11,367 nt of DNA, taken from positions 1 to 11,367 of the forward strand of contig JAFWPT010000346.1 of the NCBI GenBank assembly GCA_017509375.1. Direction: 5' to 3'. Positions 1 to 11,367 of this stretch are shown piece after piece. The notes under the pieces are model-generated. The model had not been told where the DNA came from, did not search any database, and saw only the letters and a list, made by a program, of their open reading frames with translations. This DNA comes from Bacteroidales bacterium (GTDB lineage: Bacteria > Bacteroidota > Bacteroidia > Bacteroidales > UBA932). How positions within the stretch are numbered: position 1 is the first letter of the stretch; every line of letters begins with the position of its first letter. The translations under genes and the position numbers were made by a program.

Positions 1-544
1 ACATGCCGATAACCACTGAGGCTATGATGCCGACGGTGGCCGCGGTCATGGCCAGCGACTGCATTTCTTCCACTCCGTAAGCCGCAAAGGACTCCCCTAT
101 AGCCGCCGCGGTGCCGTGTCCTCCGCAGAAACCTGCCGGCATAGACAAACCCATTGCCGGATTGACCGGCCAGAACTGGCTGAGCACCCATATTCCGAAG
201 GCGCCTCCGAGGGCCCACTGAAGCAACATTCCGGCTTGCGAATAGGCCCACATACGTCCTATGCGGGAGCTGCCGTCATTTATACGCTTTCCTTCGGAAG
301 TGAGGGGGATACAGCTGAAGACCAGCGCGATAAGTATACCGGCATAGGTACCCATCTTGTCCGACAGAGGCAGCCACCCGAGCAACTCCGGCCCAAGTAC
401 CAGGCCCAGCAGGCCTGCCAGCAGGCTTGGAGGTATGAAGAATCGCTGTATCAGGCGCACCTTTGAGCGCAGCAGCTTTCCCAAAAGCAGCAGCACGGAA
501 ATGATGCCTACATCAATCAAAAGGGTCCAGGGGGTGAAACTCAT
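1..544 (-). CDS. gltS: Na+/glutamate symporter, GltS (ESS) family, 3'-truncated by window edge
   Basis: The first 181 residues of an inner-membrane carrier are visible; the rest lies beyond base 1. GltS-family proteins import glutamate with Na+. The sequence opens with a hydrophobic helix, then FIPPSLLAGLLGLVLGPELL (about residues 36-55), and further helices. The family hallmark is AGFCGGHGTAAAIGESF near residues 141-157, matching the Gly-Gly-His-Gly-Thr re-entrant segment of GltS. The ATG (544-542) overlaps the TGA of the upstream hydrolase (543-541) as ATGA, which implies translational coupling and fixes the start. Glutamate itself as substrate is inferred from the family, but would suit an operon that releases L-Glu-containing peptides. 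The rest of the gene is needed to confirm that it is intact. The symbol refers to family resemblance, not proven orthology. Confidence 0.8.
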   Translation of the reverse strand, partial: MSFTPWTLLIDVGIISVLLLLGKLLRSKVRLIQRFFIPPSLLAGLLGLVLGPELLGWLPLSDKMGTYAGILIALVFSCIPLTSEGKRINDGSSRIGRMWAYSQAGMLLQWALGGAFGIWVLSQFWPVNPAMGLSMPAGFCGGHGTAAAIGESFAAYGVEEMQSLAMTAATVGIIASVVIGM

Positions 545-1674
545 AGGTCAAACTGTGACTTGAACAATTCGAAACGGGCGTCTGCGCCTTTGTTGTATTG
601 CTCCAGAGCGGCGGCATCCAGCCCTCGTTCGCGGAACACCTTGTCCAGCTTGCGTCCGGCACGGAATTCATCGCGCTCGAAGCGTTTCACCAACTCTATA
701 GTCCGGCGTAGCGGCTTCACCTCCAGATAATGCTTGTCCCAGCTCAAAGTCCTCAGGGAAGACCGGAGGCTCTCGGCCAGCAGGTTCGCGGGCGCTTCTC
801 CGGTCATCATGACCGGGATACGGTCTCCGGCGGCCACCCAGACGGGAACGGCGTAGCTGCAGGGAGGGTAGCCTATGGCGCACCACATCAAGCCGCTGTC
901 GGCACGTTCTCCCGGCAGCACCCCCTCGATCACTATCGCCGAGCTGGTGCTTGCGCGCGGAATGAAATCGGCGTCGTAGATATATCCGGAACGGCGGGAG
1001 CGCAGCAGGTCCCCTCCCAGGTTCACGTTCACGAAGTCGCGCGAGCAAGCGAAAAAGAACTCGGGATCGAATTTGCGGGGCGCATGACGCTGCATCAGAT
1101 GCTCGATGTTAACGAAACGGGTACGGCCGGCCAGCCGCTCCGAGTCGCCTGAAAGGGAATAGTTGGTGCGGTAGAGGAATCCGCCCTCCGGCACGTCGTA
1201 GCGCACTACGGTGTCGTCGGAAACTTCGAAGTAGGCCGCTCCTCCCCCGGCATCGACCACGCCGAAGTTGGCGCTAAGGTTCCAGGGTTTCCGCTTAGCG
1301 GCCAGCATCGCTTCAAAGTCCTCCAGAGTGGCGCAGGATGCCAGAACCAGGGCCATGAAAACTCCGTTCTGGGGGTCGGTCTTCACGGAGTCCGGCCGCA
1401 CGTTGTAGGAGAGGTTGTTGATGATGCCGAAGCCGGCTTCGTTGATTCCGGCGTATGCCTTCTTATGCCCGGTATCCTCGGTGAGGAACAGGCCGGTGTA
1501 GCCGTACTTGCCTCCGCTGACGTAGGCCAGGCAGGTGTTCACGGCCCCGTCGCGCTGCTTCCACAGCATGGGACGGCCGCTTTTGCTGGCTCCGGCGGAG
1601 ACTATGGCGGTGGTGCAGCAGAGAGCCGGCAGAGCGGTCAGGCTGAGCAAGATGATGAGCAGGAGTCGTTTCAT
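541..1674 (-). CDS. Secreted Ntn hydrolase, peptidase C45 / acyltransferase-like (377 aa)
   Basis: Predicted exported amide hydrolase of the N-terminal-nucleophile superfamily (C45 acyl-CoA:6-APA acyltransferase/linear amide hydrolase group). The start is the ATG at 1674-1672, because MKRLLLIILLSLTALPALC is a clear signal peptide; the open frame extends upstream but that part is charged and overlaps the transporter gene. Cleavage would expose Cys20 (or Cys19) of CCTTAIVS as the catalytic N-terminal Cys. Arg41-Asp42 in PMLWKQRDG match the conserved Arg/Asp near the nucleophile in this superfamily. GINEAGFGIINN (76-87) and NFGVVDAGGGAAYFE further on are typical family segments. No pro-segment follows the signal peptide, so signal peptidase probably does the maturation. 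The ATG overlaps the transporter's TGA (ATGA), and its own TGA overlaps gltS. Role inferred: cleaving an amide or peptide bond in imported or periplasmic wall fragments. The actual substrate cannot be read from the sequence. Confidence 0.8.
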   Translation of the reverse strand: MKRLLLIILLSLTALPALCCTTAIVSAGASKSGRPMLWKQRDGAVNTCLAYVSGGKYGYTGLFLTEDTGHKKAYAGINEAGFGIINNLSYNVRPDSVKTDPQNGVFMALVLASCATLEDFEAMLAAKRKPWNLSANFGVVDAGGGAAYFEVSDDTVVRYDVPEGGFLYRTNYSLSGDSERLAGRTRFVNIEHLMQRHAPRKFDPEFFFACSRDFVNVNLGGDLLRSRRSGYIYDADFIPRASTSSAIVIEGVLPGERADSGLMWCAIGYPPCSYAVPVWVAAGDRIPVMMTGEAPANLLAESLRSSLRTLSWDKHYLEVKPLRRTIELVKRFERDEFRAGRKLDKVFRERGLDAAALEQYNKGADARFELFKSQFDL

Positions 1675-2861
1675 TTGCGAATCTTGTATCCGAAATAGGC
1701 GTAATACATAATGAGCAGGTAAAAAGGCAGGCAGATCCAGTAGGCGTTCTGCATACCTACCCAGTCCTTCATGGCACCGAATAGCAGCGGAATGAGGGCG
1801 CCGCCGCCGATGGAGGCCACGAGCAGCGAAGAGCCCTTCTTGGTAAACTTGCCGAGGTCCACAATGGCCAGGGGCCAGATGGCGGGATACATCAGCGAGC
1901 AGGCGAAGCTGAGCAGGGCCACGCACCACACGGACACCTGCGGAGGAGTGAGCACTATAAGCAGCGAATCGATGACCGCCACCCAGGTGCAGATACGCAG
2001 GGCCTTCACCTGGGAAATGACCTTAGGAATGCACAGGATGCCGATAATGTAGCCCGCCGCCATGCCTATTCCGGGCCACACGGTGTAGCTTTCCGGATTC
2101 GGGAGCCCGAGGCCCTGGGCATAATCCAGCACGGTAAGCAGGGCGAGATTCTCCACTCCCACGTACACGAAGAGCGCCAGCGCCCCGAGCACCAGGTGCG
2201 GGAATTGCCAGATGTTCTTCTTGCCGGCGGCGTAGGGGCAATCCTCCTCGTTCTCCTCTCCCTCGGCCTTGATTTCTTCCAGCGGGGCGAAAATGGTCAC
2301 GATGCCCAGGATGGCCACCACAGCAATGATGATAATCAGCGGTTTGTCCAGGTCCACCAGGCCCACTGCCTCGATGGGCTTGCGGGTCACGGCGGCTATG
2401 AACACCGACGGCAGAGCGAGGGCGCAGGAGTTGCAGATGCCCATGATGCTGATGCGCCGGGCGGCGCTGTCTATGGGTCCCAGGATGGTCACGTAGGGGT
2501 TGATGGCGGCCTGCAACACGGTGTTGGCCGTGCCGCTGATGAAGCAGGCCAGAAGATAGAGCGGGAAGCTCTCCAGGCGGGCCGCCGGGATGAAGAGGGC
2601 GAATGCCGCAGCGAACATGAAGAACGAGAGCGACATGGTCTTCTTGTAGCCTATCTTCGCAATAATGCTGGAGGCCGGGAAACTGAACACCAGGAATGCG
2701 AGGAAGGTGGCGGCTATGACGAGGTAGCTCTGAGCCGAAGTCAGGTGCAGGTTGTTTTCCAGGAACGGCACGAAATACCCGTTGATACCCGTGGCAAACC
2801 CCACGGTGAAAAACATCATCCCTATAAACGCCAGGGGAATTATGTACTTGTTGTTAGCCAT
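1671..2861 (-). CDS. MFS sugar transporter, FucP/NagP-type (396 aa)
   Basis: Twelve-helix major-facilitator protein of the fucose/glucose-galactose/GlcNAc symporter group, expected in the inner membrane. It starts with MANNKYIIPLAFIGMMFF and the first helix. QAAINPYVTILGP at residues 117-129 is the hallmark of the FucP/GluP/NagP group. A long acidic cytoplasmic loop (EEIKAEGEENEED) separates the two six-helix halves. The length is normal. The ATG lies inside the end of the kinase gene (8-base overlap, 2854-2861) and the stop overlaps the hydrolase start. Pairing with a BadF-type kinase suggests the cargo is an N-acetylated amino sugar such as GlcNAc, phosphorylated after entry. In Tannerella a MurNAc transporter and kinase are paired in a comparable way, so a peptidoglycan-recycling role is the main alternative. 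The family call is firm; the substrate is inferred. Confidence 0.88.
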   Translation of the reverse strand: MANNKYIIPLAFIGMMFFTVGFATGINGYFVPFLENNLHLTSAQSYLVIAATFLAFLVFSFPASSIIAKIGYKKTMSLSFFMFAAAFALFIPAARLESFPLYLLACFISGTANTVLQAAINPYVTILGPIDSAARRISIMGICNSCALALPSVFIAAVTRKPIEAVGLVDLDKPLIIIIAVVAILGIVTIFAPLEEIKAEGEENEEDCPYAAGKKNIWQFPHLVLGALALFVYVGVENLALLTVLDYAQGLGLPNPESYTVWPGIGMAAGYIIGILCIPKVISQVKALRICTWVAVIDSLLIVLTPPQVSVWCVALLSFACSLMYPAIWPLAIVDLGKFTKKGSSLLVASIGGGALIPLLFGAMKDWVGMQNAYWICLPFYLLIMYYAYFGYKIRK

Positions 2862-3705
2862 TGTTGAGATGATATTTGATTAGTCCTTCCATCGGAGCTT
2901 TCAGAATGGTACCCATCTTCATGCCGAACTCCTCCACTACGGGTTGCAGCAGAGGCTTGAAGTAGTAGGCTACGCTGCCCACGGCGTTGAAGGTATATTT
3001 CTGATAATCAGGGTAATGGGTGACTATCAGCTTGAAAAACTGGCGGAAGGCGTCGGTTACAAGCTCCGGGAAATAGGGGTCGAAGTCCAAGTGCTCGTTG
3101 ATGAACTTGGCGTACTGGGCGCAGAAGCGGTTGGGGAAGGGCTTCGTGTAGATGACGTCCAGCAGTTCGTCGTTATTGCGGCCCAGCTCCTTGCCCACAA
3201 GTTCGTAAACCTTGGGGGGCATGTTGCGGCGTATGTAGTCGGTTATCATGCGCTTGCCGAGGTTGCCTCCGGAACCCTCGTCGCCGAGGATAAAGCCGCA
3301 GCTGTCCACGTTCAGGCCCTCGTTGCAGCCGTCGTACAGGCAGCTGTTCGCCCCAGTCCCGAGGATAGCGGCAAAGCCTGGCTTGTCTTGCAGCAGGGCG
3401 CGGCATGAAGCCAAGGTATCCATGGCTATGAACACCTTGCCGGCCTTCGTGAACACCTCCCGGAGGGTTTTCTCCATGAAGGGGTACTGGAGGGGGGTGA
3501 CTCCGGCTCCGTAGAAGTAGATTTCATCCACGAGGGTGGGGTCGAGTCCGGCCGGAAGGTTGGCGCGTATGTCGGCAACTATCTGAGTGCCGGTAATGTA
3601 GTTGGGGTTGTAGCCCTGGCTGTAGAAGCCGATACGGGTCTTTCCGTCCCTACTGACGCACCCCCACTCGGTCTTGGTAGCGCCACTGTCTGCGATTAGT
3701 ATCAT
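2854..3705 (-). CDS. BadF/BadG/BcrA-family amino-sugar kinase, GlcNAc/MurNAc kinase-like (283 aa)
   Basis: Cytoplasmic ASKHA-fold kinase that probably phosphorylates an imported amino sugar at the expense of ATP. The phosphate-1 loop is ADSGATKTEW (5-14). Asp96 in VFIAMDTLAS aligns by position with the catalytic Asp of N-acetylglucosamine kinase. The phosphate-2/adenosine region is ILGTGANSCLYDG (114-126), and GDEGSGGNLGKRM (141-153) is the strongest BadF/NAGK signature. The length and full set of motifs suggest an active enzyme. Known members of this family phosphorylate GlcNAc and sometimes MurNAc (for example MurK of Clostridium acetobutylicum). It follows the 761-residue lipoprotein gene by 26 bases and overlaps the transporter by 8, so uptake and phosphorylation are co-expressed. 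GlcNAc, one of the two pseudomurein sugars, is the simplest candidate substrate; N-acetyltalosaminuronic acid would be novel. Substrate is inference. Confidence 0.85.
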   Translation of the reverse strand: MILIADSGATKTEWGCVSRDGKTRIGFYSQGYNPNYITGTQIVADIRANLPAGLDPTLVDEIYFYGAGVTPLQYPFMEKTLREVFTKAGKVFIAMDTLASCRALLQDKPGFAAILGTGANSCLYDGCNEGLNVDSCGFILGDEGSGGNLGKRMITDYIRRNMPPKVYELVGKELGRNNDELLDVIYTKPFPNRFCAQYAKFINEHLDFDPYFPELVTDAFRQFFKLIVTHYPDYQKYTFNAVGSVAYYFKPLLQPVVEEFGMKMGTILKAPMEGLIKYHLNNG

Positions 3706-3731
3706 ATCTGTTTCTTATATAAACACACACA

Positions 3732-6017
3732 TCAGTCCCAAAGTCCGTTGAGGTCGGGAATGGCGCCGAGGCCGTAGCGGAAGAGTACGACGCCGGTGGC
3801 CGGGGTAGCGGCGAACATCTCGCAGTCGCTGCGTAATTCAGACGCGGAGAGCGGGGTAATACTGCCGTCGCTGCCGGAATAAGTCGTGAGTCCGGCCCAA
3901 ACCTCGGCAGGTGCGCCCTTTGTAGCAAAGTGGTTGGCTACGTTCCGTGCCCATGTAGTGCCTCCGCTGCTGTAGCCGTCGGTGCGGTAGTAAATCATCG
4001 GGATGAGGACATCCATGTACTGCCCCATCTGCGCGGGATCCTGGCCGTAATAGTACTCACTATTGGGCTCGGGCATGAGGGCTGCCGAGAGTATCACGTC
4101 GGGGTTCACTGCCTTCGTAGCCATGTTGATCTGCCTGCAGAACTCGGTAACGGCTCCGGTAGCGGTAATCTCCGCCGAGGGGTTATGCTGGTAGGCGGTG
4201 CCACCGAAGCGTATGTAGTCCAGGTGGATACCATCCACTCCGTAGCCCGCATAAGTCACCGCGCGCTCGATTACTTCGTCGAAGTACTCCTGCTTGTAGC
4301 GGTTGTTTTCGTCATCGACAGGATTTACCCAGTTGCCGTTGCTGTAGAAGCACTGCATCCATATATGTACTTTCAGGCCCTGATCCTGCGCCGATTTTAT
4401 AAAGGCACGGGTAGTGGATTCACCGTGGTTGGTGAAGGCAACCTCGTGAAGTAAGATGTGCTTGATGTCGTTGACGGCGAGAATGTCCAGGTTTACGGTG
4501 TGCATGTACTGTGACCAAAGCCAGATTCCGTTGTTGGAATTGGTTTCGGAGGTATAGCGGGGCTGGAAGAGCTCACAAGGAAGAAGCGTATCGTCGGAAA
4601 TCTCGGTCCCTTTGTCGTAGCCGTTGTCGAGCATATGCTTAAAGAAGAACGCATAAGTAATCAGCGCCCTCATGGAGCAGAAGCTGCCGGTGTAGCCCGT
4701 AATTGGATTACGGGGATATGTGCACATGTTGGATATGGGTTTGCCCTTATTGTAGTTCAGGGCCCTTTGAGCCCAGTTGTCAAGCACCTTTGTATCTACT
4801 ATGTGCGACACCTCATCCGTTGTACGGAAATAACCGCCGTTGCCAGGGGTCTCATTGTATGGCCAGTCACCCCAGCTGTAGCCGTGGGTATCGGGAACGG
4901 GCGTTTCGCTCATGCCCAAGGCGCCGCCATCCAGCGCCGCGATGGAGCCTGCGCCGTAATGACTGGTATCGAGACCGTTGTAGCCTCTTATCAGCAGATA
5001 GCTGCGAATGGCAGTTTCAAACATGTCTGCGGTGTTGTATGTCTTGCCTCCGACGGTAATCGTAGTGGTGGAAGGCACGTAGTGCGCTCCCGACACGTTC
5101 CATTCGCCGCCTTCGTAGTTTTCGCCCTTAAGCATGTCGATGGTGCCAACGGTATTCTGCCAAATATCCAGAATCTTTACATACTCCCGGGCGAAGTCTT
5201 CGACGGTCACCGTGCCGCTGAATGTAACTGCGGGCGTGCGGTAGATCGTTCCCTTAGTGAGGCTTGCGTTATCAACCTTCTTTATCATCGACAGGCCGTT
5301 GGTGTCCACTATCTTGACGGAGAATCCCTTGGTGTACTCTCCCGGCGGCACGGCAATGAACACAGTCGTGGGCTCGGAACTGAGGGCCTTTCCCACCTCG
5401 ACGCGGACCTTCCGGTCTTCGACAGCAGTTGAGGCTGGAGTCAGCGTTCCGCTTGAATAATCTATGCTGAAAGGGCCGCAGACTTGCTCGGAATTGCGTC
5501 CGGAGAATTCCACATAGTCTATCTCGTCGCTGCCTGAGCCTGCCAGAAGCCGGAGCTTAATGACGGCCGCCATATGCCTGAAACTGAGGTGATTGCCGGA
5601 TGCTGCGGAAGCGACCATGGGAATCGCTCCCTGGCCGAAGGATTCGTTGGTGCCGGCCGCTTGCAGGGAAGGGAGGTATACCGTGCCATCCGAGAGCCAG
5701 ATGCTCGCAGGGTAGACGGCATTCTTCGCCTCGGAAAGAGTGCCTGCGAAGGTAAAATCAGCAGATGCTGCCGGCGCGTCGAGGGCCAGAGGCTCTGAGG
5801 CCGTACCGTTTACGCAAATCGCGTCTCCGCTCTCCCAGTACACTTTTTTGCCATCCGACTGCAGGGCGACCTTACCGGTTTCAACTCCGGCGGTGATTAT
5901 TGTGACGGCCTCCTCTGCGGGGGCAGTTTCGATTACCAGTTCAATATCCTTAGTCGTGCAGCCCGCGGCAAAGGCGAGGGCTGCAAGCGCAAAAGAACAA
6001 TATCTAATTGTCTTCAT
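3732..6017 (-). CDS. Lipoprotein: fimbrillin-like domain, two pseudomurein-binding-like repeats, TIM-barrel glycoside hydrolase (761 aa)
   Basis: Large surface or periplasmic lipoprotein; Cys20 of AFAAGC is the likely lipidated residue. Residues about 37-267 are fimbrillin-like (KKVYWESGDAI at 57-67, AVYPASIW at 100-107, LSFRHMAAVIKL at 144-155). Residues about 272-345 form the first binding-like repeat: FAREYVKILD, then HYVP (312-315), VGGKTYNTADMFE and an AIRSYLLIRG helix. Residues about 408-465 form the second, with Cys432 and Cys447 and the helix ALITYAFFFKHML. Residues about 497-752 are a glycoside-hydrolase-like TIM barrel (GHL10/DUF187-like): GIWLWSQYM, VHIWMQCFY, GVDGIHLDYIRF with Asp595/Asp600, ALMPEP with Glu650, YYYGQD, VVLFRYGLG. 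Asp600 and Glu650 are the best catalytic candidates. The barrel is close to the stand-alone enzyme at 8629-9513. The likely role is to bind an archaeal-type wall and cut its glycan; the bond cleaved is unknown. Confidence 0.8.
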   Translation of the reverse strand: MKTIRYCSFALAALAFAAGCTTKDIELVIETAPAEEAVTIITAGVETGKVALQSDGKKVYWESGDAICVNGTASEPLALDAPAASADFTFAGTLSEAKNAVYPASIWLSDGTVYLPSLQAAGTNESFGQGAIPMVASAASGNHLSFRHMAAVIKLRLLAGSGSDEIDYVEFSGRNSEQVCGPFSIDYSSGTLTPASTAVEDRKVRVEVGKALSSEPTTVFIAVPPGEYTKGFSVKIVDTNGLSMIKKVDNASLTKGTIYRTPAVTFSGTVTVEDFAREYVKILDIWQNTVGTIDMLKGENYEGGEWNVSGAHYVPSTTTITVGGKTYNTADMFETAIRSYLLIRGYNGLDTSHYGAGSIAALDGGALGMSETPVPDTHGYSWGDWPYNETPGNGGYFRTTDEVSHIVDTKVLDNWAQRALNYNKGKPISNMCTYPRNPITGYTGSFCSMRALITYAFFFKHMLDNGYDKGTEISDDTLLPCELFQPRYTSETNSNNGIWLWSQYMHTVNLDILAVNDIKHILLHEVAFTNHGESTTRAFIKSAQDQGLKVHIWMQCFYSNGNWVNPVDDENNRYKQEYFDEVIERAVTYAGYGVDGIHLDYIRFGGTAYQHNPSAEITATGAVTEFCRQINMATKAVNPDVILSAALMPEPNSEYYYGQDPAQMGQYMDVLIPMIYYRTDGYSSGGTTWARNVANHFATKGAPAEVWAGLTTYSGSDGSITPLSASELRSDCEMFAATPATGVVLFRYGLGAIPDLNGLWD
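4569..5204 (-). repeat. Binding-repeat module (two PMBR-like units) in the 761-aa lipoprotein
   Basis: Codes for residues about 272-483. The unit pair recurs twice in the 803-residue protein and, more diverged, once in the transglutaminase-like protein. Shared landmarks are the FAxEYVxI helix, AHYVP, VGGKTYNTADM, a YLL(I/L/V)RG helix, (V/I)xETHGxS-like linker (here PDTHGYSWG), LDNWA(Q/M)R(A/S)LN, a Cys-Tyr-Pro segment and ALITYA(F/Y)FFK. The pattern Pro-x-x-x-x-V-x-G-G-K-x-(Y/S) followed by a helix is what I recall for the pseudomurein-binding repeat (Pfam PF09373). An HMM search would settle it. Confidence 0.7.
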
Positions 6018-6036
6018 AGGGGCATAGTTTGATTAC

Positions 6037-6074
6037 TTGGGAGCAGCAGGGGCGGTCAGGCCCCTGCTGCCAAA
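6037..6074. repeat. 38-bp intergenic repeat with perfect 11-bp hairpin, copy 2 in transcription order
   Basis: Bases 6043-6053 (GCAGCAGGGGC) pair exactly with 6060-6070 (GCCCCTGCTGC) around a 6-base loop. The whole 38-base block, including the flanking TTGGGA and CAAA, is identical to 10644-10681. It fills most of the gap between the 803-residue and 761-residue lipoprotein genes. No U-tract follows the stem on the minus strand (the transcript continues UCCCAAGUAAUC), so a classical intrinsic terminator is unlikely. A role in transcript processing, 3'-end protection or partial attenuation between operon segments fits better. It may also simply be a dispersed repeat. Confidence 0.85.
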
Positions 6075-6076
6075 TA

Positions 6077-8488
6077 CTATCCTTCGTTGCCGAAGAGTTC
6101 GGTACGAATGATTTCGCTCGTAAGGCTATCGGCCTTATCAAGATTATTGTCAAGCATATACTTGAAGAAGAAAGCATACGTAATGAGCGCACGCTGCGAG
6201 CAGAAGCAGCCGTAGTAGCCGGCAAGCTGGCTGCCGGCATAGCCGCAGAGGTTTGTAATGCTCTGGCCGTGCTGGTAGTTCAGCGAGCGCATGGCCCAGT
6301 TGTCAAGGGCATCGACTTTAACCTTGCAGTGCTCGTTATTGCTGCTGGTGCCCATTACAAAGTGACCGCCGTTGCCGGAAGTCTCGTTGTACGGGCTTGC
6401 ACCCCAGGAATATCCGTGTGTTTCAGGCACGGCGGTAGTACTCATCGAGACAGCGCCTCCGGCAAGTGCGGGAATGCTGCCCTTGCCGTACTTCTCGGTA
6501 TCGAGACCGTCGTATCCACGGACAAGGAGATAGCTGCGAAGGGCAGTTTCGAACATATCGGCAGTATTGTATATCTTTCCTCCGACTGTTATGGTGGTGG
6601 TAGAGGGCACATAGTGGGCATTCTGCACGTTATTGCTTCCTGCTGAATAGTTTTCGCCCTTCAGCATATCGATAGTACCCGTGGTGCTCTCCCAGACATC
6701 AAGTATCTTCACGTACTCCTGTGCAAAGTCCTTGATAGTGGGAATGACTTCGGTATACTCGGCTTGCCTGACGGTAATTACCAATCCGTCGGTAACATCA
6801 CCGCCAGTGATGGTCACGGTGCCTTCGCGTGCAGCGCCTGTGTTGGCCGCGGCGGTAATGCTCAAGGCATTGTCGCCCTCGCTGCCGCTGGAAGGACTGA
6901 CGGTAATCCAGCCGTCGGAGGCTGTAGCAGTCCAGGACGTATAAGCATAGAGGCCGGCATCCATAGTGCCGCCTTCGTAACCGAAATCCAGTTCGTTGGT
7001 AAATAACTGGATATCCTTTGTTTCAAGACCAAAGAGTTCGCTTCGTATTAACTCGCTGCCAGTCAAGCCGTCGGCACGGTCGAGGTCATTATCGAGCATG
7101 TACTTGAAGAAGTATGCGTAGGTGATAAGGGCTCGTCCGGAACTGAAGCAGCCACCGTAATTGGTGATGGGGCTACGGGGATAACCACAGAGATTGGTTA
7201 TCATATTAGAGTGAGTGAATGGCCAGTTCAGGGACCTCTGGGCCCAGTTGTCGAGGATTAACACGTCGGCCTGGCCATATACTTCATGCCCATTGATTGT
7301 TTTATATAAATAGCCTTCGTTACTGGACTCGACCAGCGGCGTGTTATATGAGAAACCATGTGTTTCGGGCACAGTTGTTTCGCTCATAGCAACAGGGGTG
7401 GCCGTGGGAATGTTTCCAAGTCCGGCCTTCTCGGTCTCGTTTCCATCCCAACCCCGGAGCAGGAGGTAAGAACGAAGAGCAGCCTCAAGCATGTCGGCCG
7501 TGTTGTAGGTTTTGCCTCCCACCTGAATTGTGAAGTCGTTGGGAACGTAGTGTGCATTCGCCACGACATCCTCGTCGCCATCTACCGCGAGAGCCCAGTT
7601 CGATACGCGGTTAATCGTACCAATGTGGTTTTTCCACTGATGAATTACCTCTACGTACTCCTGAGCAAAATCCTTGATGGTCACTTTGGGCGCGAAGGCG
7701 GTTTCGGGAGTGGGATAGATGGTGCCGGCTACAAGGGTGGTAGCTCCGACTTTCTTTGTCATGGCGAGGCCGTTAACGTCGACGACTTTCACGGTGAAGC
7801 CATTGGTATAGCTCCCCGGAGGCACGACTAAGAAAATCGCAGAGGCATCAGCCCCGAGAGCCTTTCCGACGTTGACTCGTACTACCTTGTCGGCCTCGGC
7901 AGTGGATGCTGACGTAAGTGCACCGGTAGAATAATCGACACTGAAGTTGCCGCTCACCTGTTCGCCGTTACGACCGGCGAATTCCACATAATCGATATTA
8001 TCGGTAGTGGTGCCTTCCTTGAGCATAAGTTTTACGACAGCAGCCACATGCGTAAACGAGAGCTTGTCGCCGGATGCTGTCCGGGCAACCATGGGCAGGA
8101 CTCCTTTGGCAAAGGACACATCCGTGCCGGCGGCTTGCTCGGCAGGCAGGCACACGGTGCCTTCGCTAACCCAGATACTTGCAGGGTAAACGGCATTCTT
8201 GGCATCGGCCAGAGCGGTGGAGAAACTAAAGTCGGCAGAAGCCGCAGGCGTTTCAATCGACAGGGCGGCGGAGGCTGTACCGTTCACCGAAATCGCATCT
8301 CCGTTTTCCCAGTAAACTTTCTTTCCGTCCGACTGAAGGGCCGCTTTTGTGTTCTGGATCCCGGCGGTGATGATGGTCACGGCTTCGTTGTCGATAACGG
8401 GCTCCTTTTCGGGTTCTGCAATCTTGTTGCAAGCTGCTGCCAGGGCAAGGGCAGCCATAGCAATGGGGAATAATCTAATCGTTTTCAT
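6077..8488 (-). CDS. Non-catalytic lipoprotein: fimbrillin-like domain, two pairs of pseudomurein-binding-like repeats, central BACON domain (803 aa)
   Basis: Predicted surface lipoprotein; Cys20 of ALAAAC is lipidated, followed by an acidic stretch (NKIAEPEKEP) typical of exposed Bacteroidota lipoproteins. Residues about 36-266 are a fimbrillin-like domain clearly paralogous to that of the 761-residue protein. Residues about 270-345 and 408-466 are the first pair of binding-like repeats. Residues about 497-576 form a BACON-type Ig-like domain: YTSWTATASDGWITVSPSSG, then AAANTGAAREGTVTITGG and the closing ITVRQAE. Residues about 584-657 and 725-783 are the second pair. The chain ends at 803 without any enzyme domain, so the protein most likely binds the polymer at the cell surface, like a surface glycan-binding protein in a PUL. 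Its ATG lies 3 bases after the stop of the 42-residue gene, implying coupled translation. Binding target is inferred from repeat resemblance; self-peptidoglycan or another polymer is the alternative. Confidence 0.8.
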   Translation of the reverse strand: MKTIRLFPIAMAALALAAACNKIAEPEKEPVIDNEAVTIITAGIQNTKAALQSDGKKVYWENGDAISVNGTASAALSIETPAASADFSFSTALADAKNAVYPASIWVSEGTVCLPAEQAAGTDVSFAKGVLPMVARTASGDKLSFTHVAAVVKLMLKEGTTTDNIDYVEFAGRNGEQVSGNFSVDYSTGALTSASTAEADKVVRVNVGKALGADASAIFLVVPPGSYTNGFTVKVVDVNGLAMTKKVGATTLVAGTIYPTPETAFAPKVTIKDFAQEYVEVIHQWKNHIGTINRVSNWALAVDGDEDVVANAHYVPNDFTIQVGGKTYNTADMLEAALRSYLLLRGWDGNETEKAGLGNIPTATPVAMSETTVPETHGFSYNTPLVESSNEGYLYKTINGHEVYGQADVLILDNWAQRSLNWPFTHSNMITNLCGYPRSPITNYGGCFSSGRALITYAYFFKYMLDNDLDRADGLTGSELIRSELFGLETKDIQLFTNELDFGYEGGTMDAGLYAYTSWTATASDGWITVSPSSGSEGDNALSITAAANTGAAREGTVTITGGDVTDGLVITVRQAEYTEVIPTIKDFAQEYVKILDVWESTTGTIDMLKGENYSAGSNNVQNAHYVPSTTTITVGGKIYNTADMFETALRSYLLVRGYDGLDTEKYGKGSIPALAGGAVSMSTTAVPETHGYSWGASPYNETSGNGGHFVMGTSSNNEHCKVKVDALDNWAMRSLNYQHGQSITNLCGYAGSQLAGYYGCFCSQRALITYAFFFKYMLDNNLDKADSLTSEIIRTELFGNEG
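6092..6739 (-). repeat. Binding-repeat module, second copy in the 803-aa lipoprotein
   Basis: Codes for residues about 584-799: FAQEYVKILDVW, AHYVP, VGGKIYNTADMFE, YLLVRGYDG, LDNWAMRSLNY, then CGYAGSQ and a pair of cysteines at 761 and 763, ALITYAFFFKYML. It is closer by eye to the module of the 761-residue protein than to its own first copy (both carry GTIDMLKGENY), which suggests duplication or gene conversion between neighbouring genes. Confidence 0.72.
7034..7681 (-). repeat. Binding-repeat module, first copy in the 803-aa lipoprotein
   Basis: Codes for residues about 270-485: FAQEYVEVIHQW, AHYVP, VGGKTYNTADMLE, YLLLRGWDG, LDNWAQRSLNW, CGYPRSPI, ALITYAYFFKYML. The linker after the first helix (GTINRVSNWALAVDGDED) differs from the other two modules. 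Between this copy and the second sits the BACON domain. Confidence 0.72.
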
Positions 8489-8491
8489 GGC

Positions 8492-8620
8492 TTACTCGTC
8501 CTCCCAATTAAGAATATCACCTTGTTGCATTTCCTGGATATCGCCGCTTGCGGCGAAAATCGAATAGGTCCTCAATTCCAGTATGTTGGCTTTAGGAGTT
8601 TGGTAATTAGTTTTATCCAT
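8492..8620 (-). CDS. Small acidic protein upstream of fimbrillin-like lipoprotein (42 aa)
   Basis: A 43-codon frame reads MDKTNYQTPKANILELRTYS at its start, continues SIFAASGDIQEMQQGDIL and ends NWEDE-TAA. It fills the otherwise unexplained 140-base gap between the glycoside hydrolase stop (8 bases upstream) and the 803-residue lipoprotein start (3 bases downstream), an arrangement expected of a real, translationally coupled gene. From memory, Bacteroidales genomes contain many short proteins with this plan (Tyr-x-x-Pro-Lys, a hydrophobic Val/Leu-rich strand, then Ala-Ser-Gly-Asp and an acidic C-terminus) just upstream of fimbrillin-like or other lipoprotein genes; their function is not known to me. 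There is no signal peptide or membrane segment. It may be a leader, a chaperone-like partner or simply a conserved small protein. It is not part of a neighbouring gene. Confidence 0.72.
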   Translation of the reverse strand: MDKTNYQTPKANILELRTYSIFAASGDIQEMQQGDILNWEDE

Positions 8621-8628
8621 ATTATGAA

Positions 8629-9513
8629 TTATTTGGTTTTTAAACTGTTGAGGTTGGGGAGCTCACCGAGACCGTAACGGAAGAGGACTACGCCTTCGGC
8701 CTTGGTGGAATCGATGAACATACGGCAGTCTTTAAGTATGCCTTCCGCATCCATCGGGACGACCTTCGTGGAATCGGTGTCGTAGTAGGTAGTGAGGCCG
8801 GCCCAGACCTTGGCGGGAGCGCCCTTTGTAGCGAAGTGGTCGGCGACCATCTGCGCCCAAGGCCTGCCGCCCTTGCGGTAGGAGTCGCAGTGGAAGTAGA
8901 TCATCGGCATCAGTATGTCGATGTACTGGCCCATCTGGGCGGGATCCTGGCCGTAGTAGTATTCGCTGTCAGGCTCGGGCATAAGGGCTGCGGAAAGGAT
9001 GATGTCCGGGTTGGCAGCCTTGGTGGCGGCGTTTATCTGGCGGCAGAACTCGGTCACGCAGCCGGTGGCGGTGATTTCCTCGGAAGGATTGTGCTTATGG
9101 GCGGTGCCGCCGAAACGTATATAGTCCAGATGGATGCCGTCCACGCCGTAATTCACGTATTTCACGGCACGTTCAATGACCTTGTCGAAGTATTCCTGGT
9201 CGTAGCAGTTGAGTGAATCCTTGACTGGATTGATCCACTTGCCCTCGTTGTAGAAAGCCTGGAACCAGATGTGGACCTTCATGCCCCGCTTGTGGGCCTC
9301 GCTCACGAAATCCAGGGTGGAGTCCACTCCGTGGCGTTCGAAAGCCACTTCGTGCAGGATGATGTTCTTGATGTCTTTGGCGGCGAGGGTGTCCAGATTG
9401 ACCTCGGTCATGAACTTGGACCAGAGCCAGATGCCGTTGAAATTGGGCTCCGCTGCCTTTTTGCAGGATGCAAGGGCCAGCAGGGCCAGTGCGATAACTA
9501 TGTATTTTTTCAT
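8629..9513 (-). CDS. Lipoprotein TIM-barrel glycoside hydrolase, GHL10/DUF187-like (294 aa)
   Basis: The start is the ATG at 9513-9511, because MKKYIVIALALLALASC is a lipoprotein signal peptide with Cys17 as the lipid site; an in-frame ATG at 9555 would put polar residues before it and overlap the upstream gene. The mature protein is almost entirely one catalytic domain (about 26-282). Motifs in order: GIWLWSKFM, ILHEVAFERHG, MKVHIWFQAFYNEGKWINPV (79-98), YGVDGIHLDYIRFGG (122-136), AALMPEPDSEYYYGQDP, LMPMIY, VWAGLTTY, VVLFRYGLGELP. Asp130 and Glu180 are the best acid/nucleophile candidates. The block 123-199 differs from the barrel of the 761-residue protein at only 10 of 77 positions by my count. 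It lacks the binding repeats, so it may act on released fragments while the larger enzyme works on the intact wall. Substrate unknown; pseudomurein glycan is the contextual guess. It follows the transglutaminase-like gene by 13 bases. Confidence 0.8.
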   Translation of the reverse strand: MKKYIVIALALLALASCKKAAEPNFNGIWLWSKFMTEVNLDTLAAKDIKNIILHEVAFERHGVDSTLDFVSEAHKRGMKVHIWFQAFYNEGKWINPVKDSLNCYDQEYFDKVIERAVKYVNYGVDGIHLDYIRFGGTAHKHNPSEEITATGCVTEFCRQINAATKAANPDIILSAALMPEPDSEYYYGQDPAQMGQYIDILMPMIYFHCDSYRKGGRPWAQMVADHFATKGAPAKVWAGLTTYYDTDSTKVVPMDAEGILKDCRMFIDSTKAEGVVLFRYGLGELPNLNSLKTK

Positions 9514-9526
9514 AAGTTGATGATAA

Positions 9527-10627
9527 TCAGAAAGGAAGAGTCTTGTATCGGCCATTGAACTTGTTCATGCCTTTCCAGACGGGGAAACCGAAAGTGGCGC
9601 TGTTGTTGGACGGGTCGCTTACCCACCAGCGGCCGCCGGCCCAGATTTCCGGGATAACGTGGCCAATCACACCGGAACTGAAGTAACATTGGCCGTGCAT
9701 ATAGCGGGCGGGTATGCCGGCTGCGCGGCACATGGCGAGCGTGGCGTGCGTGAGGTCGCAGCAGTTGCCTCCCTTGGCCTGGATGGTCTTCACCGAACCT
9801 TTATGGGTGTTGGCGTAATCCTCCCACTCCCATTGGTCGCGGGCATACTCGAAGATTGCCTTGGCCTTCTGCAGGTCGCTTGCATTCTGCGGCAGTCCGG
9901 CCAGCGCGGCATCCCTTGCGGCCAGGACCACCGGATCGTCTATGTCGCAATTAGTAACCTTGCGGAGGTAGTCGGAGCCCCAGGTGCAGACTTTATCGGG
10001 GAACTTCAAATTGTGCTTGTAGTAATAGAAGGCGCGGCAGAGGGCGGCGCCGTAGTCGCGGGAAATGAAATTGCCTATGTACTTCACACCGTCCTTGAAA
10101 GGATTGTCATAAGTATAGGTGTAGGTGCTGTCCGCCCCGCGAGAGGGACAGGTGATGGTGCCGAACGAGACATAATTGGGCATGGAGCCGTTCTTGATGC
10201 CATAGGCGAGAGCCTTGTCGGCAGCCCAGGTGAGGGCTTCGATGGAGATGGAATCTTGTTCGAATGTGTTGTTGGCATCGGCGCTGCCCCAGGTCATCCT
10301 GACCGGAACGTCCACCTCCTCATCCTCCCAGTGCTCAGGATCCTCCTGAATCTTTCGCAGGAGGGCGCATGCGGCAGCCATATACTGACCCTTGCCGTAG
10401 AGGATGCCCTCCACATTGACCGAGGCGGGCAGTTCATCCTTTTCCACGAAGATCTCGTAAGCCTTGGCGAATTCTTCCACGAAGAAACCGTTGTAACGCT
10501 GGGCAACGAATTCTTTGGGAGTATCGTCAGGCTTGTCTTCCGGCTGGTCCGGATTCTGCCTGGGCTGGCAGGCGCAGGTGGCAATAAGAATTGAGCAGGC
10601 CAATAAAACTAATGCAAACTTCTTCAT
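9527..10627 (-). CDS. Lipoprotein with pseudomurein-binding-like repeats and transglutaminase-like (peptidase C71-type) domain (366 aa)
   Basis: Candidate pseudomurein endoisopeptidase. The signal peptide ends near Cys18/Cys20 (SILIATCAC) and is followed by the acidic linker QPRQNPDQPEDKPDD. The first binding-like repeat is about 50-95: FAKAYEIFVEKDELPASVNV then a QYMAAACALLRKI helix. The second is about 128-207: ALAYGIKNGSMPNYVSFG (139-156), an inserted Cys/Tyr-rich stretch, then ISRDYGAALCRAFYYYKHN. Residues about 235-345 are a transglutaminase-like domain: Cys289 in GGNCCDLTHATLAMC, RAAGIPARYMHGQCYFSSG (301-319), His323 in GHVIPEIW, Asp338 in WWVSDPSNN. This gives the complete Cys-His-Asp triad. 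Repeats followed by such a domain is the layout of PeiW and PeiP, which cut the Ala-Lys isopeptide bond of pseudomurein. The fold is secure; the substrate is inferred. Alternative: a protease against another wall peptide. Confidence 0.85.
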   Translation of the reverse strand: MKKFALVLLACSILIATCACQPRQNPDQPEDKPDDTPKEFVAQRYNGFFVEEFAKAYEIFVEKDELPASVNVEGILYGKGQYMAAACALLRKIQEDPEHWEDEEVDVPVRMTWGSADANNTFEQDSISIEALTWAADKALAYGIKNGSMPNYVSFGTITCPSRGADSTYTYTYDNPFKDGVKYIGNFISRDYGAALCRAFYYYKHNLKFPDKVCTWGSDYLRKVTNCDIDDPVVLAARDAALAGLPQNASDLQKAKAIFEYARDQWEWEDYANTHKGSVKTIQAKGGNCCDLTHATLAMCRAAGIPARYMHGQCYFSSGVIGHVIPEIWAGGRWWVSDPSNNSATFGFPVWKGMNKFNGRYKTLPF

Positions 10628-10643
10628 TTTTCAATGGTTTAAA

Positions 10644-10681
10644 TTGGGAGCAGCAGGGGCGGTCAGGCCCCTGCTGCCAAA
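10644..10681. repeat. 38-bp intergenic repeat with perfect 11-bp hairpin, copy 1 in transcription order
   Basis: Identical to 6037-6074. Stem arms are 10650-10660 and 10667-10677 with a 6-base loop (GGTCAG on the plus strand). It occupies the gap between the DOMON-like gene and the transglutaminase-like gene. As in the other copy, the stem is not followed by a U-tract on the minus strand (UCCCAAUUUAAACC). On the minus strand it is preceded by five T residues (CTTTTTGGC), which is the wrong side for termination of minus-strand transcription. Confidence 0.85.
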
Positions 10682-10689
10682 AAGATGAA

Positions 10690-11283
10690 TTAATTAAGAG
10701 TAATCTGTACTTTTGCAGGTATACTCTGGGATGCCATACCAACCCTAACCCCGATGGTTGAGCCGGAAGCAGGTGAGCCGATCTTGGCACGAGGGATACT
10801 ATACTCGATAAGCGATGAGTCTCCGGATACTTTGCCCATAGAGCCGAGAGTATCGACCTTTGTTCCTATTGGACACTCTATCTTGCTGTCGTTTATAACC
10901 TCATTAGCTAGAACCGGATCTTCACCGGAGGCGTTGCTGAACGGGAATGTAACCGTAAGGGCTTCGTAGTCAGAGCCCAATCCATAGCCTGCATCTGCAC
11001 CGGTAGCTGAATTATTGTCGGTATCGAATGCCGCAACAAGATATGCATTCCATTTACCCCTGGATTTTGCCACAGAATTAGGGACTTTGAAGTAGAGGTA
11101 GATATTGTCAGCATCAGAGGTTACCTTCCATTCAGTAATTCTGTCACCAGTTCCAGCCTGCGCACCGATGCCATCCCAGTCGGATAGATCGCCGTCGATC
11201 TTGATGGATGCTGCAGCTGCAGGGCTCTGGCCGTAAAGGTCGAAGTCGAACTTCTTGTCCTTGATGGCGGAATAGACATACAT
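10690..11283 (-). CDS. DOMON/CBM9-like domain protein, probably missing its N-terminus (197 aa)
   Basis: One beta-sandwich domain of the CBM9/DOMON type is visible: SIKIDGDLSDWDGIG (26-40), EWKVTSDADNIYLYFKV (51-67), AFDTDNNSATGADAG (85-99) with a Ca-binding-like Asp pattern, and IEYSIPRAKIGSP (159-171). Such domains in Bacteroidota bind carbohydrate or stand at the end of surface lipoproteins; which applies here is not visible. The product begins MYVYSAIKDKKFDFDLYG, not a signal peptide, although every other polymer-handling protein here is a lipoprotein. An in-frame TGA sits at 11310-11308, only eight codons before the ATG. So either this is the 3' part of a longer gene broken by a stop, frameshift or rearrangement, or translation begins at an internal site. 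It ends 62 bases before the transglutaminase-like gene and is probably co-transcribed with it. No function is assigned. Confidence 0.6.
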   Translation of the reverse strand: MYVYSAIKDKKFDFDLYGQSPAAAASIKIDGDLSDWDGIGAQAGTGDRITEWKVTSDADNIYLYFKVPNSVAKSRGKWNAYLVAAFDTDNNSATGADAGYGLGSDYEALTVTFPFSNASGEDPVLANEVINDSKIECPIGTKVDTLGSMGKVSGDSSLIEYSIPRAKIGSPASGSTIGVRVGMASQSIPAKVQITLN

Positions 11284-11367
11284 TCCGAGATTTAGAATAC
11301 TATTGGTTCAATGAAAGAAACGTTTTCCCAGCTCCTGAATACGCCGCGACTTTTGTAGAAAATCATG
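11284..11367. other. Edge region upstream of the truncated DOMON-like gene
   Basis: All three minus-strand frames close before joining the gene: one gives an 18-residue tail ending QELGKRFFH-TGA at 11308, another runs from an ATG at 11366 and stops before the gene. I see no Bacteroidota-type promoter (TTTG around -33, TAnnTTTG around -7) and no lipoprotein signal sequence. The 18-residue tail could be the end of another gene entering from the right, but it is too short to identify. The break between this stretch and the DOMON-like gene may be a rearrangement point or sequencing error. Confidence 0.35.

Follow-up and report, generated by a model that had tools for sequence, protein, structure and literature searches.

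We analysed an 11,367-nt stretch of DNA from a Bacteroidales bacterium of the UBA932 lineage (assembly GCA_017509375.1, contig JAFWPT010000346.1, positions 1 to 11,367; hereafter the window). It holds a set of nine co-directional genes on the minus strand, separated by short gaps or overlapping. In order, these genes encode the end of a large module lipoprotein, a lipoprotein with a transglutaminase-like protease domain (hereafter TG), a stand-alone glycoside hydrolase, a module-BACON-module lipoprotein, a module-glycoside hydrolase lipoprotein, an amino-sugar kinase, a major facilitator superfamily (MFS) permease, a C45-like hydrolase and a GltS symporter. The kinase, permease, C45 and GltS genes overlap by 4 to 8 bases and are therefore operon-like, in agreement with the single operon proposed in a first-pass annotation of this DNA, which had read it as a candidate locus for degrading pseudomurein. 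The window covers the distal portion of a conserved Sus-type polysaccharide-utilisation locus (PUL) of gut Bacteroidales that carries a surface protease and repeats of methanogen-wall type. Among the papers listed by searches of open-licence literature, we recognised no report of this PUL, of any bacterial pseudomurein locus or route of use, or of methanogen predation by Bacteroidales.

TG matches PF01841 with an E-value of 3.7e-18, which bears out the transglutaminase-like domain previously assigned to it. Homology searches found 161 relatives, of which 120 were listed, and 36 of these 120 were aligned with the window protein (n = 37). Cys-289, His-323 and Asp-338 were invariant in all 37 members (numbered 288, 322 and 337 in alignment A1, which lacks Met-1) and form a predicted triad, set by motif; motif and predicted structure together place this Cys-His-Asp triad on a transglutaminase-like fold. 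The AlphaFold model of TG (pLDDT 89.6) returned PeiP, a pseudomurein endoisopeptidase of a methanogen virus, as its first Foldseek match.

The kinship of the protease domain was then assessed with profiles and trees. A hidden Markov model (HMM) built from Bacteroidales transglutaminase domains alone scored methanogen proteins at up to 133 bits (median 122), and scored the other fetched loci at no more than 47 bits in Clostridia and 44 bits in Bacteroidales. Profile A3, which includes one Methanosphaera row and one Clostridia row, matched all 60 sampled Methanobacteriota genomes at E ≤ 1.2e-32; outside carrier genomes, its best matches were 4.6e-16 among 244 Clostridia and 4e-13 among 246 Bacteroidales (each of our genome samples includes its central carrier genome). 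Among 50,697 phage records, the best match to TG was the "pseudomurein-binding repeat protein" of Methanobacterium virus Drs3 (39.6% identity over query residues 220-366, 1e-22). This protein (ORF_00035) combines pseudomurein-binding repeats (PMBR) with PF01841, reaches the pseudomurein endoisopeptidase PHROG and lies near the threshold of the MEROPS C71 family (PF12386, 20.7 bits for a cut-off of 22). When viral sequences were scanned with A3, one of 49 candidate stretches matched, and a scan with the methanogen alignment A5 found nothing. In a tree from which six long-branch rows were left out, the transglutaminases of the locus, of methanogens, of two viruses and of one Clostridia genome were split from other bacterial transglutaminases (100/95); the locus enzymes formed a clade of their own in the tree with viruses (99/93). 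A tree with the six rows and without the viruses recovered the split at 99/99, with two further Clostridia rows falling inside. On the HMM scores and the tree, we rejected an ordinary bacterial transglutaminase as the identity of TG. Judged by sequence kinship, its protease domain is of the methanogen or methanogen-virus type and distant from the other bacterial transglutaminases sampled. Most rows of the Methanobacteriota and Drs3 proteins share with TG a terminal ...LPF, in addition to the transglutaminase family and the PMBR region, but TG belongs to the separate locus clade, bears a lipoprotein anchor and has sugar and peptide catabolism genes as neighbours.

Ahead of the protease domain, the window TG matches the PMBR family PF09373 weakly (E 0.0034, 17.8 bits, under the cut-off of 24.9). 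The family as a whole gives a clearer picture: PF09373 appears in the precomputed annotation of 24 of the 120 listed homologues and at E ≤ 0.01 in 28 of the 37 aligned members (best 1.5e-10), with the repeats preceding the catalytic domain as in PeiP and PeiW. An HMM built from methanogen repeats alone matched 30 of the 37 members and none of 370 shuffled sequences, and we rejected a chance match on this ground. This HMM is a narrow probe, since PeiP itself scores 5.7 bits and is not recovered; it was seeded with Pfam-located repeats, as a search seeded with PeiP repeats missed the methanogen ones. Direct comparison of the TG repeat region with that of methanogen PMBR-transglutaminase proteins gave an hhalign E-value of 2.1e-6 and a probability of 89% (0.041 for a glycoside hydrolase control). 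In the AlphaFold model, this region forms four helices, and a beta hairpin comes ahead of two of them. We consider PMBR in the TG family to be firm at the level of sequence, though weak in the window's own protein. The first-pass annotation was to be abandoned if neither profile nor structure searches revealed PMBR similarity; the family matches and the first rank of PeiP reveal it. In a sample of 395 Bacteroidota genomes, PMBR matches at E ≤ 1e-3 occurred in four, none above the cut-off; one of them is the TG of genome G001 and another (L098) lies in a helicase-like frame.

Scanning 84,980 species genomes with a pattern-based search gave 46 loci, 44 of them from Bacteroidales, Bacteroidia or Cryptobacteroides, one from Methanosphaera and one from a Clostridia genome. 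The loci were fetched via their transglutaminase protein, so that TG is present by design, and two of the 44 (L016 and L022) lie on one contig. Gene order is conserved across the loci. In relatives, the stretch upstream of the part covered by the window encodes SusC, SusD, a ceramidase-like hydrolase, two GH20 enzymes, a MurQ-like etherase, an LTD-glycoside hydrolase protein and the large module lipoprotein. On the downstream side, GltS is followed by an M20 amidohydrolase with a C1-type peptidase fused to it. The adjacent SusC and SusD genes of G001 match TIGR04056 (885 bits) and PF07980 (4.9e-44), and the pair was found upstream in all four further genomes that were extended and wholly or partly inside 11 of the 44 fetched loci. 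For the window locus, we infer SusC/SusD, GH20 and the etherase by synteny from the genes seen in relatives. The relatives thus share with Bacteroidota Sus-type PULs the SusC/SusD pair, surface binding lipoproteins, glycoside hydrolases and a permease, as the earlier designation of a PUL would have it, but differ from the usual ones in having a wall peptidase of archaeal type among their surface enzymes.

Rumen, omasum or reticulum is named as the origin of 12 of the 44 loci; goat caecum, horse faeces, reindeer and a caecum sample are named for others, and many belong to the RUG series, which we take to be rumen genomes. Such animal-gut origins, ruminant ones included, together with several large surface lipoproteins bearing repeated modules and BACON domains, would also suit a role in adhesion rather than feeding, in which the lipoproteins would attach the bacterium to methanogens so that hydrogen can pass between them, and the protease would trim the contact. 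We regard this as very improbable, because the co-directional SusC/SusD, permease, kinase, etherase and peptidase genes indicate uptake and catabolism.

The same binding-repeat module had been attributed to three lipoproteins of the window. This stood for PMBR in the TG family; in the other two lipoproteins, the large modules show little direct match to PMBR and are linked to TG as distant kin by a pooled profile. The HMM of methanogen repeats matched 2 of the 19 rows of module alignment A2 and none of the 35 rows of A4, 17 of which hold the module motif, and the large modules compared with the methanogen PMBR region at profile E-values of 0.011-0.24. Against the TG repeat region, window-type modules alone gave an E-value of 0.015 and a probability of 3%; when modules of relatives, which diverge more, were added to the pool, the values became 1.6e-5 and 79% (control 0.048). 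These HMM and profile comparisons led us to reject one identical module in all three lipoproteins. Two AlphaFold models have a common helix, beta-hairpin, helix layout, as judged from secondary-structure strings. The BACON lipoprotein is likely a surface glycan-binding protein. The fused and stand-alone copies of one hydrolase were correctly recognised in the first pass, as both match PF13200 above the cut-off of 27 (32.2 and 35.2 bits, respectively); matches to PDB sequences are weak, and the fold is closest to Cwp19 of C. difficile.

The modules are thus diverse and PMBR-like only at a distance, and the GH20, ceramidase-like and LTD-glycoside hydrolase proteins are compatible with several substrates. 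It is therefore conceivable that the PUL targets some other glycoconjugate of 3-O-substituted N-acetylglucosamine (GlcNAc), such as a host glycan or one on the surface of methanogens or other gut cells, and that PMBR-type modules are general carbohydrate binders. We find this improbable: the kinship of TG is with wall peptidases, and in many loci the sugar genes have genes for handling peptides (C45, M20/C1 and GltS) beside them.

The kinase, already labelled an amino-sugar kinase, has PG1100 (E 1.5e-61), 1zxo and K1058 and MurK of Tannerella forsythia (MurK E 2.7e-53) as its best relatives in the PDB. According to the accessible part of PMC10465942, Ser-Pro-Leu 133-135 and Thr-94 of MurK accommodate the lactyl ether of its substrate. 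The locus kinases have neither feature: in all 38 readable loci the pocket reads Asp-Ser-Cys (37) or Asp-Ser-Leu (1), with Met at the place of Thr-94. The MurQ-like etherase (MurQ') is present in 31 of the 33 loci whose sequence reaches at least 6.5 kb beyond TG on the upstream side, as well as in L037, the two without it being L022 and L024. All 32 copies carry the motif GxGTGG(K/R)...E(V/L/I)PNT, counted with a pattern that would also catch the canonical motif. The canonical GAGTSGR...SE(I/C/V)PPT is found in 23 of the 24 loci that hold other Bacteroidales MurQs; the exception (L154) reads TSGR...SEIFPT, with one place different. MurQ' retains the glutamate that presumably handles the leaving lactate. 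It forms a 100/100 clade on a long stem, which fits a gene that changed job and was then kept constant, and no MurQ with at least 60% identity to it was found in 246 other Bacteroidales genomes (next 52%). Four MurQ' copies were scored: none reaches the cut-off of the equivalog TIGR00274 (224-248 versus 302), which two canonical MurQ copies of carrier genomes narrowly miss too (290 and 299), and one reaches that of PRK12570. Of ten carrier genomes tested, all ten encode another kinase elsewhere and six also another etherase, of canonical type, the two being adjacent in four; draft genomes may miss copies in these counts, and the pattern read second kinases in six of the ten loci. Altered motifs and second copies argue, as far as sequence can, for a different 3-O-substituted GlcNAc as the substrate.

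We propose that the locus is a PUL for methanogen pseudomurein, with a probability of about 0.6. Its parts, their conserved order, their kinship and their divergence are established, and from these we infer the substrate. By homology, the module lipoproteins and PMBR repeats would hold the wall at the cell surface, where TG would cut peptide cross-links; it may cleave the Ala-epsilon-Lys isopeptide bond of pseudomurein, as C71 enzymes do. Family membership suggests that the PF13200 hydrolases and the two GH20 enzymes would cut the amino-sugar chain, that SusC/SusD and the MFS permease would import the fragments, and that C45, the M20/C1 enzymes and GltS would process amide bonds, peptides and glutamate. 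Pseudomurein peptides are all-L, and GltS and the peptidase set would suit such a peptide. In the cytoplasm, the MurK-like kinase and MurQ-like etherase would process a GlcNAc-type sugar. A specific but speculative route, which we put forward as doubtful, is that digestion outside the cell is followed by import of the acidic disaccharide N-acetyltalosaminuronic acid-(1->3)-GlcNAc, that the kinase phosphorylates C6 of its GlcNAc, and that the MurQ-like enzyme eliminates the 3-O-linked uronic sugar to yield GlcNAc-6-phosphate. The uronic sugar would then leave by the elimination that MurQ uses on lactate. In N-acetylmuramic acid (MurNAc) as in this disaccharide, a group with an acid function sits on O3 of GlcNAc, which would explain changes at the lactyl site with the catalytic glutamate kept.

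Several observations weigh against pseudomurein as the substrate. The PMBR plus C71 layout of the first-pass annotation holds for the repeats and for PeiP as the closest structure, but PF12386 gave no match in the window at E ≤ 1 nor in the 37 TG members at E ≤ 0.01; TG superposes loosely on whole PeiP and differs from PeiP and PeiW in being a secreted bacterial lipoprotein within a PUL. By sequence, the two large modules appear to be only distant kin of the TG repeat region. Kinship to MurK and MurQ at first sight suggests bacterial murein or MurNAc: all four MurQ' copies exceed the cut-off of subfamily PRK05441 (283-297 bits versus 168), and other pocket residues are tolerated in the paralogue K1058 (PMC10465942, accessible part). 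Fusions of pseudomurein-binding domains to GFP bind lysozyme-treated bacterial spheroplasts, according to the accessible part of PMC3124540.

These points would suit a murein salvage PUL, in which GH20 and PF13200 enzymes would cleave murein, MurNAc would be broken down by MurK/MurQ-type enzymes, and a PMBR-transglutaminase borrowed from archaea or viruses would act on murein fragments; the structures nearest to the kinase, the likeness to Cwp19 and the PMBR-rich Clostridia genome described below, presumably murein-walled, point the same way. We consider murein salvage unlikely, although it is the main rival to the pseudomurein reading. The kinase and etherase motifs are changed in all locus copies read, separate copies exist elsewhere in carrier genomes, and the TG domain is unlike the bacterial transglutaminases sampled. 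Among the locus genes that were scanned, we saw no NlpC/P60, N-acetylmuramoyl amidase or lytic transglycosylase family, and a three-motif GFP fusion bound neither purified murein particles nor intact bacteria, according to the accessible part of PMC3124540. The closest known system, murTKQ of T. forsythia (PMC5790795 and PMC10465942, accessible parts), has in common with the locus a permease, likened by type and not to MurT, a BadF-type kinase and a MurQ-type etherase. It differs from the locus, which has the altered lactyl pocket and etherase motif, second copies elsewhere in the genome, and SusCD, GH20, PMBR-transglutaminase and PF13200 genes joined to it. A plain MurNAc operon was set aside on the motif changes, the second copies and the MurQ' clade, and is retained as a rival. 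If murein were the target, "pseudomurein-binding repeat" would be a misleading name for a more general wall binder.

On the pseudomurein reading, the sequences suggest that carrier Bacteroidales may feed on methanogen cell walls. If so, methanogens would serve some gut Bacteroidales as prey or as material to scavenge. This would supply a trophic link so far missing from the rumen, one that bears on methane, and the locus would offer new methanogen-lysing enzymes beyond the viral PeiW, PeiP and PeiR.

The remaining window genes agree with their earlier names to varying degrees (Table 1). The FucP-type transporter is more precisely a permease of GluP/NagP type, which exceeds the TIGR01272 cut-off (214.4 versus 202.6 bits) and scores 273 bits with the NagP model, under its equivalog cut-off of 625. 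The secreted Ntn hydrolase is C45-like by its NF040521 match (5.1e-12) and falls under both curated cut-offs. GltS was named correctly (PF03616, 44.5 bits, cut-off 26, E 1.1e-11) and is partial in the window, a complete copy being present at L009:15189-16520. Rfam and tRNA scans of the window gave no matches.

Table 1. Coordinates of the genes and domains of the window.
Feature	Position	Strand	Evidence or remark
TG lipoprotein: PMBR-type repeat region (four helices) and transglutaminase-like Cys protease domain, 366 aa	9527..10627	-	PF01841, PF09373, AlphaFold/Foldseek
Best single PMBR match in TG, residues 126-155	10163..10252	-	
Transglut_core match in TG, residues 249-339	9611..9883	-	
Stand-alone glycoside hydrolase lipoprotein (PF13200/DUF4015), 294 aa counted from the MKKYIV start	8629..9513	-	
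BACON lipoprotein: N-terminal domain resembling that of the module-glycoside hydrolase protein, module, BACON, module	6077..8488	-	PF13004 6.7e-12
BACON lipoprotein module 1, about residues 266-482	7043..7693	-	
BACON lipoprotein module 2, about residues 581-803	6080..6748	-	
Module-glycoside hydrolase lipoprotein: fimbrillin-like N-domain, module (about 4554-5213), glycoside hydrolase (about residues 491-761)	3732..6017	-	
BadF-type amino-sugar kinase, MurK/PG1100 group, altered lactyl pocket (Asp-Ser-Cys for Ser-Pro-Leu)	2854..3705	-	
MFS permease, GluP/NagP type	1671..2861	-	TIGR01272
Secreted C45-like Ntn hydrolase, candidate Cys after signal peptide	541..1674	-	NF040521; start chosen by eye
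GltS-type Na/glutamate symporter, partial, runs off the window	2..544	-	PF03616
C-terminal domain of large module/BACON lipoprotein, upstream of TG	10690..11283	-	Frame broken near window end

The product of the last of these features is 95% and 93% identical to the stretches that precede TG in L012 and L013, respectively. Relative to L012, its frame is lost in the last ~80 bases (window 11284-11367), which probably reflects an assembly edge.

Several loci present variations or neighbours of their own. The ceramidase-like protein (PF04734) is conserved (L101:3-1052 with L009:1-447; L035:413-3406), is fused to GH20 in L035 and is possibly an amidase of wall glycopeptide. The contig shared by L022 and L016 has two TG genes ~18 kb apart, the second directly upstream of the SusC/SusD pair that heads the first locus, and the TG gene of L017 likewise lies directly upstream of SusC. 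A GHL10-type putative hydrolase is encoded on the opposite strand directly beyond the locus at L009:19194-20609. The Clostridia genome G005, from goat colon, which contains locus L047, has 27 PMBR matches and five strong domains of PMBR-transglutaminase type; its sequences nest weakly among methanogens (94/59 in the tree without viruses), and 244 other Clostridia sampled around it showed no PMBR at E ≤ 1e-3. Finally, a viral contig (L228:7611-8372) encodes a protein with PG_binding_1 and a methanogen-type transglutaminase domain, in an apparent endolysin position with an integrase-like gene nearby, which is possibly a methanogen-virus lysin with a bacterial-type binding domain.

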